DNA of 64,000 bases from the NCBI RefSeq assembly GCF_018967865.2, contig NZ_JAHLZY020000003.1, positions 62,001-126,000 of the forward strand, read 5' to 3'. A program made the translations under genes and the position numbers. Positions 3,216 through 37,713 of this stretch are shown in pieces. Position 1 is the stretch's first letter; each line of letters starts with the position of its first letter. Under the pieces are notes generated by a model that worked only from the letters and a program-made list of their open reading frames with translations, had not been told where the DNA came from and did not search any database. The stretch comes from Hymenobacter siberiensis. GTDB taxonomy: Bacteria > Bacteroidota > Bacteroidia > Cytophagales > Hymenobacteraceae.

Positions 3216-3229
3216 ATGACTTTCGTCAA
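3216..3229. promoter_or_regulatory. FNR-like palindrome between ppsA and atpD
   Basis: ATGACTTTCGTCAA has half-sites TGAC and GTCA around a 4-base centre, close to the FNR/ANR consensus TTGAT-N4-ATCAA. It lies 105 bp upstream of ppsA and 160 bp upstream of atpD, so it could serve either divergent gene. On the atpD side a TAATCTTGT stretch at about 3252-3260 resembles the second block seen beside the sites at 14.3 and 19.1 kb, but about 13 bases further away. It is the weakest of the four sites by sequence. Confidence 0.45.
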
Positions 3230-3388
3230 GGGGACGCGGCTGGGGCAGCCGTAATCTTGTGCGGGGCTATGGCATTAGTAGCCAGCAGTGTCGCAACGCG
3301 CATGCCTCAGCCAGAAAACTGCGCTGCCCCCGGCCACCTCGTGTAGCAAGTGGCCGGGCGCAGTCGCCTTTGCGCGTCCCAATCGTGA

Positions 3389-4870
3389 ATGCCCATGAAC
3401 CATCAAACGCATATACCGGCAGCAGCAGCTCCCCGCCCCGCGGGCCGCATCATCTCCGTGCGGGGAAGTGTGGTAGACGTGTGGTTCGACCACGACCTGC
3501 CCGCCATCTACTCCGTCCTGTATGCCGGGGCCGGACAGCAGGTCGTCATCGAAGTATTAACGCAGCTCGATGAGCACCGGGTGCGCGGCATTGCCCTGAA
3601 TCCCACCCAGGGCCTCACCCGCGGCCTGCGGATAGATACTGAAGGAAAGCAGCTTGAGGTGCCCGTAGGCAATGAAATCCTCGGCCGGATGTTCGATGTG
3701 TTTGGCAATACCATCGACCACGGGCCACCCCTGGCCGGGCTTGCGCAGCGCGCCATTCACCGGCTGCCCCCGCCTTTGCTGCACCGTTCCACCAAGTCCG
3801 AAATCTTCCGCACCGGCATCAAGGCCATCGATGTGCTGATTCCGCTGGAACGGGGCGGCAAGGCCGGGCTGTTCGGCGGCGCGGGGGTGGGCAAAACGGT
3901 GCTGCTCACGGAGATAATCCACAACATGGCCGGCCACACGAACGGGGTCAGCCTGTTTTGCGGCATTGGCGAGCGGTGCCGCGAAGGCCTCGAGCTGTAC
4001 CACGAAATGAAGGAGGCCGGGGTGCTGCAAAATATGGTCATGCTGTTTGGCCAGATGAACGAGCCGCCCGGCGCGCGCTTCCGGGTAGGCCACGCGGCCC
4101 TGACCATGGCCGAATACTTCCGCGACGATGAGCAGCGCGACGTATTATTGCTGATTGACAACATCTTCCGCTTCATCCAGGCGGGCATGGAAGTATCGGG
4201 GCTGCTGGGCATGATGCCCTCGCGCCTAGGCTACCAGCCCACGCTGGCCACGGAGCTGGCCAAGCTCGAAGAGCGCATTGCCAACACCGAGGCCGGGGCC
4301 ATTACCTCCATTCAGGCCGTGTACGTGCCGGCCGACGACCTGACGGACCCGGCCGCCGTGCACGCGTTTTCGCACCTGTCGGCTACCATCGTGCTGTCGC
4401 GCAAAAGAGCGAGCGAGGGCCTGTTTCCGGCCATCGACCTGCTGCAGTCCAATTCCAAAATGGCCACCGCCGACATCATCGGGCCGCGACACTACGCGGT
4501 GGCCCAGGAAATAAAGCGGGTACTGGCCCAATACGAAGAGCTGCAGGACATTATCGCCATGCTAGGGCTGGAGCAGCTCTCCACCGCTGACCGCAACCTG
4601 GTGGGCCGGGCCCGGCGGCTGGAGCGGTTTCTCACCCAGCCGTTTTTCACCACCGAGCAGTTCAGCGGCCTGCCGGGCAAAGACGTTGGGCTGGAGGACG
4701 CCCTCAGCGGCTGCGAGCGGATTCTGGCCGGCGAATTCAACGACCTGCCCGAGAGTGCCTTTTACATGATTGGGACGATTGAGGAGGCCCGGCAGAAGGC
4801 TGGGAAAAAGGAGAAGGCGCAGCCCCAGGATGCGGGCCATGCCGAGGCCCGCCACCCTGCCCAGGAGTGA
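3389..4870 (+). CDS. atpD: N-type F1Fo ATPase subunit beta
   Basis: This is the catalytic beta subunit (493 aa) of the F1 head. The Walker A GGAGVGKT sits at residues 163-170, the Walker B region is [14 protein letters not shown], and the catalytic glutamate lies in GERCREG, where housekeeping beta subunits usually have GERTREG. The Cys form is common in N-type enzymes as I recall them. The gene opens an operon in the N-ATPase order (beta and epsilon first, then Q, R, B, E, F, A, G), which differs from a housekeeping operon. A second ATG lies two codons downstream. The C-terminal 20 residues are charged and low in complexity. It is normally followed directly by atpC, but here a cupin gene intervenes. 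Confidence 0.95.
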
Positions 4871-4983
4871 GTGCAGCCCAGTGGCCGGGGCATCGCCGGA
4901 TAGTCATGCTCAGATAACCCCATCATAACTGGCTGGCGACTGTCAAAACAGACTCAATACCATAAACTTAAAAACCCGAAATC

Positions 4984-5370
4984 ATGAAAATTTCAAAAGG
5001 TGACATCGAAGTCAAAATGGATATTCCTGGAGCGGTTCTTCGTCAAAAAACCGAATTCGGTAATGCTGCCGGATTGGGTATGATAAGCGCAGAGTATTTC
5101 AGCCTTGCCGAAGGCGTTGATACTACCCCTTTGTTTGTGGGGCTCGAAGGAGATTTATGTCAGTGTCCACACTGGGGATATCTGCTGAGCGGTCAGGTGA
5201 CCGCAACGGACGCTAATGGCACCGAAGAGACTGTAAATGCGAATGACCTTTTTTATTGGCCTCCAGGGCATAATGTAAAAGTCAATGCAGATGCGGAGAT
5301 GATTATGTTTAGTCCCCAGCATGAGCATACGCTGGTAATCAATCACATGATTGAAAAGACCAAAGGCTAG
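4984..5370 (+). CDS. Small cupin-domain protein inserted in the ATPase operon
   Basis: This 128-aa single-domain protein resembles cupin_2 proteins: a beta-rich core with CPHWGYLLSGQVTATDANG and then DLFYWPPGHNVKVNADAEM. Metal ligands are not obvious; H and C occur in the first motif and H in PPGHNV. The gene is visibly more AT-rich than its neighbours (ATGAAAATTTCAAAAGG start, many AAA and TTT codons). It lies between atpD and atpC, which are normally adjacent in N-ATPase operons, with about 113 bp before it and 167 bp after it. I infer a late insertion by horizontal transfer. The function is unknown; related small cupins bind metals or small ligands. Confidence 0.75.
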   Translation: MKISKGDIEVKMDIPGAVLRQKTEFGNAAGLGMISAEYFSLAEGVDTTPLFVGLEGDLCQCPHWGYLLSGQVTATDANGTEETVNANDLFYWPPGHNVKVNADAEMIMFSPQHEHTLVINHMIEKTKG

Positions 5371-36842: not shown

Positions 36843-37153
36843 AGGAGCAGAATAGGCGGAGCGGTGGCCATGCGGGGAGAATGCTATGGGTGCCAAATCG
36901 GTGTTTGGGAAGGAGGTAGTCCCTCATGCCCGCGAACCAGCTCATAGGCGTCAGTTAGCGATGAAGCTACTGCAGCTCGGGAGCGGTATTGGGCTTAGGG
37001 GCAGCTGGTATAGGCGTCAGGTGACTGGTAAACTTGTACTCCCTATCCGCCGTCAAACTGGCATCGGCATCCCGCTCCAGTTCCCGGCTGGTCGGGTCCA
37101 GGGGGAGGAAGGATTCGGCCCGGCTCCCGGGCTGGCCGCTCAGGGCGGTGCCG
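36843..37153. other. Gene-free intergenic region
   Basis: 311 bp between the desaturase start and the end of the BON fragment. I see no credible gene, tRNA or repeat. The promoter of the desaturase fusion gene presumably lies here. Confidence 0.5.
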
Positions 37154-37618
37154 CTAGCGGCGCGCATCGACGCTGAACTTCAGGGTTGCAGTGGCTTGCG
37201 GCTCGTAGGCAGCCGGTTCCACCGGGGCTGGCACGCGCAGGCAGGTGTTTCTGGCATGGGCCCCGGCAACTAGCGTGGACTGGTGAATGCCAGAGTCGGG
37301 CGCCATATAGGCAGGCCTTATTTTCAGCAGGTTATGAACGGTGTGCACGCCGGCCACCTGGCAGGCACCGTGCTCAGCTTCCTGGTGGGCACGCCGGCTG
37401 CTCACCGTGCCCATGAGCGTCACGATACCCCGGTGGGCCTGCACCAGCATTTCGGAGCCGTGCCCGCGCGGGTTGCCAAGCAAGGTCTCCCGCACCTTAT
37501 GGACGATGGCCTCGTCGGGGCGAGGGGCGAAATTATCGCCCCGCAGCTCACTGCCCGGTGCCCGGTAGGCTCCGAGCAAATGGAGGGCATTGAGCAGGGG
37601 TTGGTTACGGGCTTGCAT
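37154..37618 (-). CDS. Truncated BON-domain protein, partial copy of the six-BON gene
   Basis: The 154-aa protein has one BON repeat: SEMLVQAHRGIVTLMGTVSS, then AHQEAEHGACQVAGVHTVHNLLKIRP. It aligns with repeat 4 of the protein at 17277-18716 (ETLVQVHEGIVTLAGTVSN, AEHDARLVVGVTEVHNLLKV), including the flanks SELRGDNFAPRPDEAIVHKV versus SELRRGKFALRADEAIVEAV. The region after repeat 4 is diverged. An FNR-like site with the conserved block lies 82 bp upstream, so the copy kept the same control. It may be functional or a relic. Confidence 0.7.
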   Translation of the reverse strand: MQARNQPLLNALHLLGAYRAPGSELRGDNFAPRPDEAIVHKVRETLLGNPRGHGSEMLVQAHRGIVTLMGTVSSRRAHQEAEHGACQVAGVHTVHNLLKIRPAYMAPDSGIHQSTLVAGAHARNTCLRVPAPVEPAAYEPQATATLKFSVDARR

Positions 37619-37674
37619 GGGGCTGGGAGTCGATGATTACAGTGCTGCAAAAGTCCGCTGAAGCGGTAGCCCTT

Positions 37675-37713
37675 CCCATAACATTATTCGGCGCATTGGA
37701 TGACATCCATCAA
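37675..37713 (-). promoter_or_regulatory. FNR-like box with conserved block upstream of the BON fragment
   Basis: On the minus strand TTGATGGATGTCAT (37700-37713) is followed by TGCGCCGAATAATGTTATGGG ending at 37675. Spacing and several bases (TGCG, TGT, ATGGG) match the 19.1-kb site. It is the third instance of the two-part architecture. Confidence 0.5.

Follow-up and report, generated by a model that had tools for sequence, protein, structure and literature searches.

In Proteobacteria it is well known how oxygen and energy stress control genes; in Bacteroidota this is less mapped. Proteins of the FNR/ANR group bind TTGAT-N4-ATCAA, and the oxygen-sensing FNR holds a [4Fe-4S] cluster by means of an N-terminal cysteine cluster and a central cysteine. 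In the FixLJ-FixK system of rhizobia, which has an oxygen-sensing heme-PAS kinase and controls cbb3 oxidase genes, a separate receiver-LuxR protein, FixJ, controls a separate fixK gene, and at class II promoters of the CRP/FNR family the operator is centered at -41.5. Here, we analyzed a stretch of 64,000 nucleotides of Hymenobacter siberiensis (hereafter the window), for which an earlier reading of the sequence (the original prediction) had claimed four FNR-type palindromes upstream of energy and stress genes. The window comprises positions 62001-126000 of a 149.5-kb contig, C3, in a genome of 4.83 Mb and three contigs; C3 is probably a plasmid because related parts were found on plasmids of H. 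psoromatis and H. swuensis. We favor, with a probability of about 0.75, the reading that activator-dependent promoters of a single regulon lie at the four sites, and that the activator is most likely a receiver-CRP/FNR fusion protein (REC-CRP) encoded in the window and/or its paralogue on C3.

Like FixLJ-FixK, the system considered here pairs a two-component system with a CRP/FNR-type activator, and cbb3 oxidase genes are among its putative targets in relatives. Unlike in FixLJ-FixK, receiver and CRP/FNR parts are fused and encoded next to the kinase, without a separate FixJ output or FixK, and the promoters are of the Bacteroidota type. FNR/ANR regulons share with it the TTGAT-N4-ATCAA sites and, by alignment with Escherichia coli FNR, a recognition helix of the form E-x-x-S-R; here, by contrast, the cysteine cluster is absent, an N-terminal receiver domain is present, and tandem sites are the usual layout. 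Class II and tandem CRP promoters have an operator at -41.5 and another about two turns upstream, as is predicted here, but here the downstream element is a -7 box of the TAnnTTTG type and the spacing hardly varies (22 bp, sometimes 23). The stress genes also resemble the lxa locus of Burkholderia cenocepacia, which in the part of the study drawn on here encodes six Usp proteins together with one BON and one heat shock protein, and for which control by FixLJ-FixK is discussed (PMC6127331).

A promoter layout with paired FNR-like sites

All four palindromes were confirmed, on the plus strand at 14325-14338, 19089-19102, 37700-37713 and 3216-3229, and exact TTGAT-N4-ATCAA occurs at three further places in the chromosome (L001-L003). 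Palindromes alone lie within chance: allowing up to two mismatches, TTGATNNNNATCAA matched the window 13 times, whereas shuffled sequences averaged 8.86 matches and 9 of 100 reached 13. The bare palindrome count was dropped as evidence because it was not significant against shuffles.

The composite of palindrome and second block did exceed its control. Counting positions from the first T of TTGAT toward the gene, the first three sites have a 66-bp layout in common, with site A at positions 1-14, the second block at 23-37, at equal spacing just as had been claimed, and a third element, the -7 box GANNTTTG, which the original prediction overlooked and which is placed identically (59-66) at all three. 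The block is a second FNR-like site (site B), 22 bp after A. The exact composite TTGAT-N5-TCA-N18-GTYATG matched the 4.83-Mb genome three times, precisely at these three sites, and its reversed control not at all; at up to two mismatches it lost specificity (19 matches against 15 in the control). When A, TCATG and the -7 box were searched together throughout the genome, allowing up to three mismatches, eight places matched, and none in the reversed control. These were the three main sites, window 46200-46135 in front of a DUF2382 gene, and four chromosomal places, which precede a Usp gene, a second BON-repeat gene, a gene for a small Met-rich protein and an SDR gene (the chromosomal Usp, BON and Met-rich labels were read from translations).

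A site matrix was trained on 11 and then 14 promoters, the three window sites included, with leave-one-out scores of at least 29 for the 14. Scanning the entire C3 contig at spacings of 20-24 bp gave ten distinct places scoring at least 13, the weakest at 18.1 and 15.4 (four extra rows were shifted registers of two of the ten), and none in the reversed 149.5-kb contig reached 13. The ten include the fourth palindrome, which precedes ppsA. One of these sites (C3 45443) lies upstream of a Usp-like gene, another (C3 56425) upstream of a small open reading frame (ORF) followed about 0.9 kb further on by a metallo-beta-lactamase-fold gene, and a third (C3 53583) directly downstream of the paralogous regulator gene; the latter two carry a perfect TAnnTTTG. 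At the three main sites the box conforms to AnnTTTG at the fixed place, but its first base is G.

In the portion of the work on Flavobacterium psychrophilum used here, the sigma-A box TAnnTTTG is located at -12 to -5 (PMC9723704). Because of this location, we set the G of TTTG as -5, which for Hymenobacter would put the transcription start at position 71, the center of B at -41.5 and that of A at -63.5. The layout thus shares with the Bacteroidota sigma-A promoters, as far as that portion describes them, a -7 core TTTG at a fixed place, and departs from them in that the first base in the window is mostly G and that site B fills the region of the -33 element (PMC9723704).

The layout also recurred in related genomes when one element was left free. 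With A and the -7 box searched and B free, 120 Hymenobacter genomes yielded 31 places in 25 genomes (reversed control 0), and the TCAT of B stood at positions 33-36 in 30 of the 31. With B and the -7 box searched and A free, 24 places were found in 14 of the 120 genomes (reversed control 0), all 24 with A exactly 22 bp upstream (21 as TGA..TCA, three as TAA..TCA). Many of the matches in both searches are orthologues or come from one species and are hence not independent; they precede unrelated genes, among them ccoN, M50, BON, Usp and SDR genes. An exact composite search of the family genomes gave 27 matches against six in the reversed control; all of the 27 except L042-L046 and L049 were examined.

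The block had originally been taken for a new core promoter element, which does not hold up. In several relatives' promoters B is a full palindrome (CTGATTACAATCAT, GTGATATTAGTCAT, TTGATATCCGTCAT), and in the first two promoters of the window its left half reads GTAAT or GCAAT. We read the block as a putative second activator site and the known TAnnTTTG-type -7 box further downstream as the core element. It is very improbable that the block is a core element read by an alternative sigma factor beside a single FNR-type site. Its conservation in the stress promoters ([GA]CAATTCT-like before GTCAT) is striking and exceeds what a decayed half-palindrome would need, and an ORF with a match to sigma-70 region 2 (an extracytoplasmic-function-like sigma factor) lies at window 26848-27363; against this, other promoters of the layout have a full palindrome in place of the block (CTGATTTTTGTCAT, TTGATATCCGTCAT, CTGACGTTCGTCAT), 22 or 23 bp from A, and a housekeeping-type -7 box follows at a fixed distance. 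Hardly credible is the notion that the similarity is a relic of recent promoter duplication among BON and Usp genes rather than a product of selection: such genes are indeed duplicated in the genome, but the spacer bases differ while the elements are fixed, which already contradicts it, and across families the layout precedes genes as unrelated as M50, BON, SDR, ppsA, ccoN, P-type ATPase, hemF and Hsp20. As a separate observation, the left half of B in the stress promoters (L270-L293; window 14303-14316 and 19067-19080) is kept CAATTCT-like and not as the half of a palindrome.

The candidate regulator and its recurrence with the layout

The candidate regulator is encoded at 46308..47360 on the minus strand and consists of a receiver domain, a cNMP-binding (cyclic nucleotide monophosphate) fold and an HTH_Crp domain (Pfam, alignments, structure model and Foldseek). 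A PAS histidine kinase gene (47338..49029, minus; Pfam, including PAS_4) overlaps it by 23 nt if its start is the ATG at 47360. C3 encodes two such receiver-cNMP-HTH_Crp proteins; the paralogue lies at C3:53628-54707, and the product of a gene neighboring it is 59% identical to the window kinase over 180 residues. The genome has three HTH_Crp_2 matches, namely the two REC-CRP proteins on C3 and one stand-alone CRP/FNR protein on the chromosome.

The recognition helix is of the FNR type (PESLSR in the window protein, VETISR in E. coli K-12 FNR, with ExxSR shared in the alignment), and none of the cysteines of E. coli K-12 FNR has a counterpart in the window protein by alignment. An oxygen-sensing iron-sulfur FNR is thus not supported as the activator; the candidate is a fusion of a two-component receiver to a CRP/FNR-type protein. 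A single cysteine, inside the receiver domain, is present in all 81 relatives (80 loci plus the paralogue); the next commonest occurs in 35 of 81, before the predicted start, and the one after in 11 of 81, with only positions occupied in at least five sequences being listed. The receiver aspartate is likewise found in 81 of 81, and the recognition glutamate and arginine in 80 of 81 with one gap. As in two-component response regulators, D9, D52 and K104 are invariant and T82 is conserved in at least 90% of 36 sequences, and the kinase gene overlaps. In CRP, a phosphate cassette with Arg-Ser binds cyclic AMP (cAMP); the window protein has HFDTA at the place of ERSA in Thermus thermophilus CAP, and this speaks against binding of cAMP. 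Among the best 25 of 104 NCBIfam families for the regulator, none reached its curated cut-off. The structure model (mean predicted local distance difference test score 85.3, predicted template modeling score 0.52) is reliable for the domains and not for their arrangement, and it confirmed the domain order; the top Foldseek match was T. thermophilus CAP, and no receiver-CRP chain was among the best 50 matches.

We kept 80 named REC-CRP loci (1,513,721 bases in total) of 299 relatives found. The loci were selected around the regulator gene, and reversed sequence is an imperfect control owing to guanine-cytosine (GC) skew and codon bias, hence random regions and neighboring distances also served as controls. 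The matrix found 131 sites in 63 of the loci against one in reversed sequence. Untrained pairs of TGA-N6-TCA peaked at a distance of 22 bp (107 pairs), with 18 more at 23 bp, and at most four were counted at each remaining distance between 10 and 59 bp; TTTG peaked at +39 from the TGA of a palindrome. By comparison, 20 random regions from 17 Hymenobacter genomes (400 kb) contained no pair at 22 or 23 bp and no matrix hit. The layout occurs at Hymenobacter loci (46 loci, 86 hits) and at those of other Bacteroidota (34 loci, 45 hits), and at 104 of the 131 hits an ATG-initiated ORF of at least 100 amino acids begins no more than 300 nt from the predicted start (median 25.5 nt). REC-CRP proteins were found in Hymenobacter, Pontibacter, Runella, Arcicella, Chitinophaga, Flavihumibacter and three Flavobacteriaceae, and the layout adjoins the gene in members of all these groups except the Flavobacteriaceae. 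A co-occurrence test on the presence or absence of REC-CRP over 200 family genomes (167 with a match) was set aside, with only 10 candidates scored per genome.

The sites also co-vary with the regulator. The helix residue in question (318 counted from the ATG), which we take to be at the position of FNR Ser212, is Ser at 18 of the 80 loci, Ile at 59, Val at two and a gap at one. The outer base of the half-site is C at 2 of 54 positions at Ser loci and at 180 of 273 at Ile loci (in Hymenobacter alone, 2 of 51 and 163 of 210), and the C-TGA half-site is, we assume, neither that of FNR nor that of CRP. Averaged per locus in Hymenobacter, the C fraction is 0.03 for Ser (10 loci) and 0.77 for Ile (25 loci, range 22-100%). 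Fisher p-values of 1e-19 to 1e-23 are overstated, as they assume independent sites and ignore relatedness; on the tree, the Ser/Ile label requires at least three changes. Two genomes hold both types: H. frigidus has a Ser locus with 0% C (L120) and an Ile locus with 56% (L121), and H. nitidus a Ser locus with 0% (L142) and an Ile locus with 78% (L127). The window regulator is of the Ser type, and in the 12 sites of its own genome the outer base of the A halves is C at 2 of 24 positions. On balance, the co-variation appears to reflect a link between the sites and the REC-CRP DNA-binding domain and not base composition.

A stand-alone CRP/FNR protein of 232 amino acids is encoded on the chromosome (C1:2516345 region), and it is unlikely, though worth serious consideration, that it is the activator here, either alone or with REC-CRP. 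Its helix is also of the Ser type (RETVSR), and in 8 of 8 loci relatives of it (43-48% identical) are encoded upstream of the identical layout, seven of them 0.16-0.22 kb from it and the one in L210 about 1 kb away; these loci (L203-L210) represent all eight promoters of one type in the search with A and the -7 box. In four genomes (G044, G068, G137 and G161) the layout adjoins a stand-alone CRP/FNR gene and no REC-CRP match was among the scored candidates; when all HTH_Crp_2 candidates of these four were scanned, none had a frame of at least 350 amino acids. The stand-alone family thus very probably uses the layout too. Because two or more CRP/FNR regulators in the phylum would then use it, the Ser-type sites of the genome could be shared and could not be assigned from the sequence alone. 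On the other side, the stand-alone gene's own locus has one weak hit (22.3) in 18 kb, both REC-CRP genes have sites next to them (C3 53583, 56425 and 108200), and the Ser/Ile co-variation links the sites near REC-CRP genes to the REC-CRP helix. Independently of this question, the order of a stand-alone CRP/FNR gene, a promoter with A, 22-bp spacing, B and -7 box, and a small gene (no Pfam match in the two scanned) recurs in eight Hymenobacter genomes, possibly as a separate unit.

Proposed signal and mode of action

Low oxygen is a likely signal because in relatives the layout precedes ccoN (cbb3), CcoI-type ATPase, hemF/hemA, globin and Usp genes. Cbb3 oxidase, heme and globin genes are usually induced at low oxygen. 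Among 128 sites with an ORF, the targets were ccoN/FixO (26), CcoI-type ATPase (20), a small gene divergent from the kinase (18), Usp (13), BON (6), the kinase (6), Hsp20 (4), truncated hemoglobin (3), hemF (2) and PfkB (2); the truncated hemoglobin had no Pfam match and is 85% identical to the annotated one on the H. swuensis plasmid pHsw1. On pHsw1, the annotated P-type ATPase, ccoN and hemA genes have sites immediately in front of them. The proposal of one low-oxygen or energy-stress regulon of Bacteroidota type thus stands as regards the shared layout, the FNR-type specificity, the promoter type and the stress and energy genes, and low oxygen itself becomes plausible only through the targets of relatives.

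In the scheme that we propose, the kinase would sense oxygen, redox or energy state and phosphorylate the receiver of the neighboring REC-CRP. Dimers of the CRP domain would bind A and B, two operators on one face of the DNA; the dimer at B (about -41.5) would touch RNA polymerase and substitute for the -33 element, with a second dimer held at A (about -63.5). RNA polymerase would then be recruited at the -7 box, and Usp, BON, M50, ppsA and related genes would be expressed. Such a scheme would condense FixLJ-FixK to a single kinase and a single receiver-FixK fusion. Sequence does not reveal the direction of control, and the operators might instead serve a repressor or a dual regulator; we consider this improbable, given that an operator at -41.5 is the classical position for activators and that the targets of relatives belong to genes typically switched on at low oxygen.

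Several observations weigh against an activator-dependent regulon under REC-CRP. Degenerate left halves (GTAAT, GCAAT, CCGAA) are seen at three B sites of the window, and the -7 boxes of the main sites start with G instead of T. Among the 27 family hits are chance matches such as L027 and L038, neither of which has a -7 box. No matrix hit was obtained at 17 of the 80 regulator loci and no pair at 22 or 23 bp at 18; eight have neither (L118, L156, L157, L158, L168 and all three Flavobacteriaceae loci, L187, L190 and L193). Ile loci vary from 22 to 100% C in Hymenobacter and from 0 to 67% outside it, and 4 of the 12 sites in the window's own genome have C as the left base of B, so the residue-base code is not strict. 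The same genome holds the Ser-type stand-alone CRP/FNR protein discussed above. Lastly, cbb3 oxidase was not detected in this strain: a single COX1-family gene was found, in which no CXXCH motif was present and which is unlikely to be of the cbb3 type. The regulon here may therefore serve energy stress or dormancy instead of cbb3 respiration.

More broadly, we lean toward the view that REC-CRP and its PAS kinase form a master regulator of low-oxygen or energy-stress responses across much of Bacteroidota, acting through a rigid arrangement of A, 22 bp, B and TTTG and a one-residue code (Ser with T/A-TGA, Ile with C-TGA), and at times carried with its regulon on plasmids in Hymenobacter. The analysis provides a concrete regulator, a site model of low background and a list of targets (cbb3 oxidase, Usp, BON); it offers a natural test of how one helix residue alters specificity in the CRP/FNR family, and it suggests how CRP/FNR dimers are placed relative to the unusual -7 promoters of the phylum. 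No description of the regulator or the layout was among the matches listed in a search of open-access literature without preprints, which is weak evidence of novelty. As a side observation, plasmids carry full low-oxygen-type sets together with kinase and regulator (L266 and L268 on plasmid DNA of H. psoromatis, L267 on pHsw1 of H. swuensis); the sets comprise cbb3, globin and heme genes, or hydrogenase, phosphoketolase, ATP synthase and cytochrome d oxidase genes.

Individual promoters and their surroundings

The promoter of the M50 protease and Usp genes spans 14338-14273 on the minus strand, with site A TTGATGAAAATCAA (14325..14338, center about -63.5), site B GTAATTCTCGTCAT (14303..14316, center about -41.5; this is the original block, recovered without being searched for) and the -7 element GACTTTTG (14273..14280), from which a start near 14268 is predicted. 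It precedes a gene for an M50-type protease of 359 amino acids with CBS domains (13122..14201, minus; Pfam M50 and CBS), followed by two Usp genes (12239-13081 and 11243-12160; Pfam). The second promoter (19102-19037, minus) has site A TTGATGAATATCAC at 19089..19102, site B GCAATTCTTGTCAT at 19067..19080 and the -7 element GATTTTTG at 19037..19044, with a predicted start near 19032. Downstream on the same strand lies a 516-amino-acid ORF with six BON stretches (17277..18827; Pfam), after which comes a Usp gene (16391-17209; Pfam). A perfect inverted repeat, GATTGAT-TTTTGT-ATCAATC, covers the -7 box and predicted start of this promoter (19029-19048, minus) and is also found in one relative (G094, L082); another regulator could use it as an operator.

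The third promoter (37713-37648, minus) consists of site A TTGATGGATGTCAT (37700..37713), site B CCGAATAATGTTAT with a weak left half (37678..37691) and again GACTTTTG as the -7 element (37648..37655); its predicted start, near 37643, is 25 nt before the ATG at 37618 of a single-BON protein (37154..37618, minus; Pfam). A fatty-acid hydroxylase gene (35526-36896; Pfam) lies downstream, and beside these two is a DDE transposase gene (34276-35388), within which a near-palindrome at 34297 is probably due to chance. A fifth, weaker promoter (TTAAGCAAACTCAT / ATGAAGTATCTCAT / GACCTTTG; 46135..46200, minus) stands directly after the regulator gene and serves a gene for a DUF2382 protein (45106..45960, minus; Pfam).

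The fourth palindrome (3216..3229) has the layout in the minus direction (3229-3163) with a spacing of 23 instead of 22 bp, and it scores 29.6 with the matrix although it is outside the training set. Read on the minus strand as TTGACGAAAGTCAT, it is site A for ppsA, followed by site B CTGACATTGGGCAT (3193..3206, 23 bp from A) and the -7-like GTCCTTTG (3163..3170, predicted start near 3158); ppsA, for phosphoenolpyruvate synthase, lies at 676..3111, minus (NCBIfam equivalog above cut-off; Pfam). On the plus strand, 3216..3229 is possibly site B of the divergent N-ATPase operon (atpD ORF 3389-4870), with 3193..3206 as its weak site A and a weak -7-like TAATCTTG at 3252..3259. The pair can thus be read as serving both divergent operons, with A of one being B of the other, and the N-ATPase direction scores 10.9, barely over the single reversed-control hit in the window (10.6). 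Among the 131 matrix hits, 6 show such a shared divergent pair exactly and 16 have a mirrored TTT box, compared with 16 of 524 shifted places. A ppsA-like site is present in H. frigidus (L121, score 25.3), and in H. psoromatis a weak site (22.4) lies upstream of a plasmid-borne ATP synthase beta gene.

Divergent from the window kinase gene is a small ORF (49221-49553); the region between the two (49029-49221) contains a TACCTTTG box only and no scoring A or B site. In 18 relatives a tandem-site promoter precedes a small gene that is mostly divergent from the kinase. At three loci (L086, L094 and L101) a gene with a tandem-site promoter encodes a protein of 91-111 amino acids of unknown family (MKHTLL...), and in two genomes (G124 and G151) the MKHTLL... 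gene diverges from a second type of REC-CRP, 49-50% identical to that of the window.

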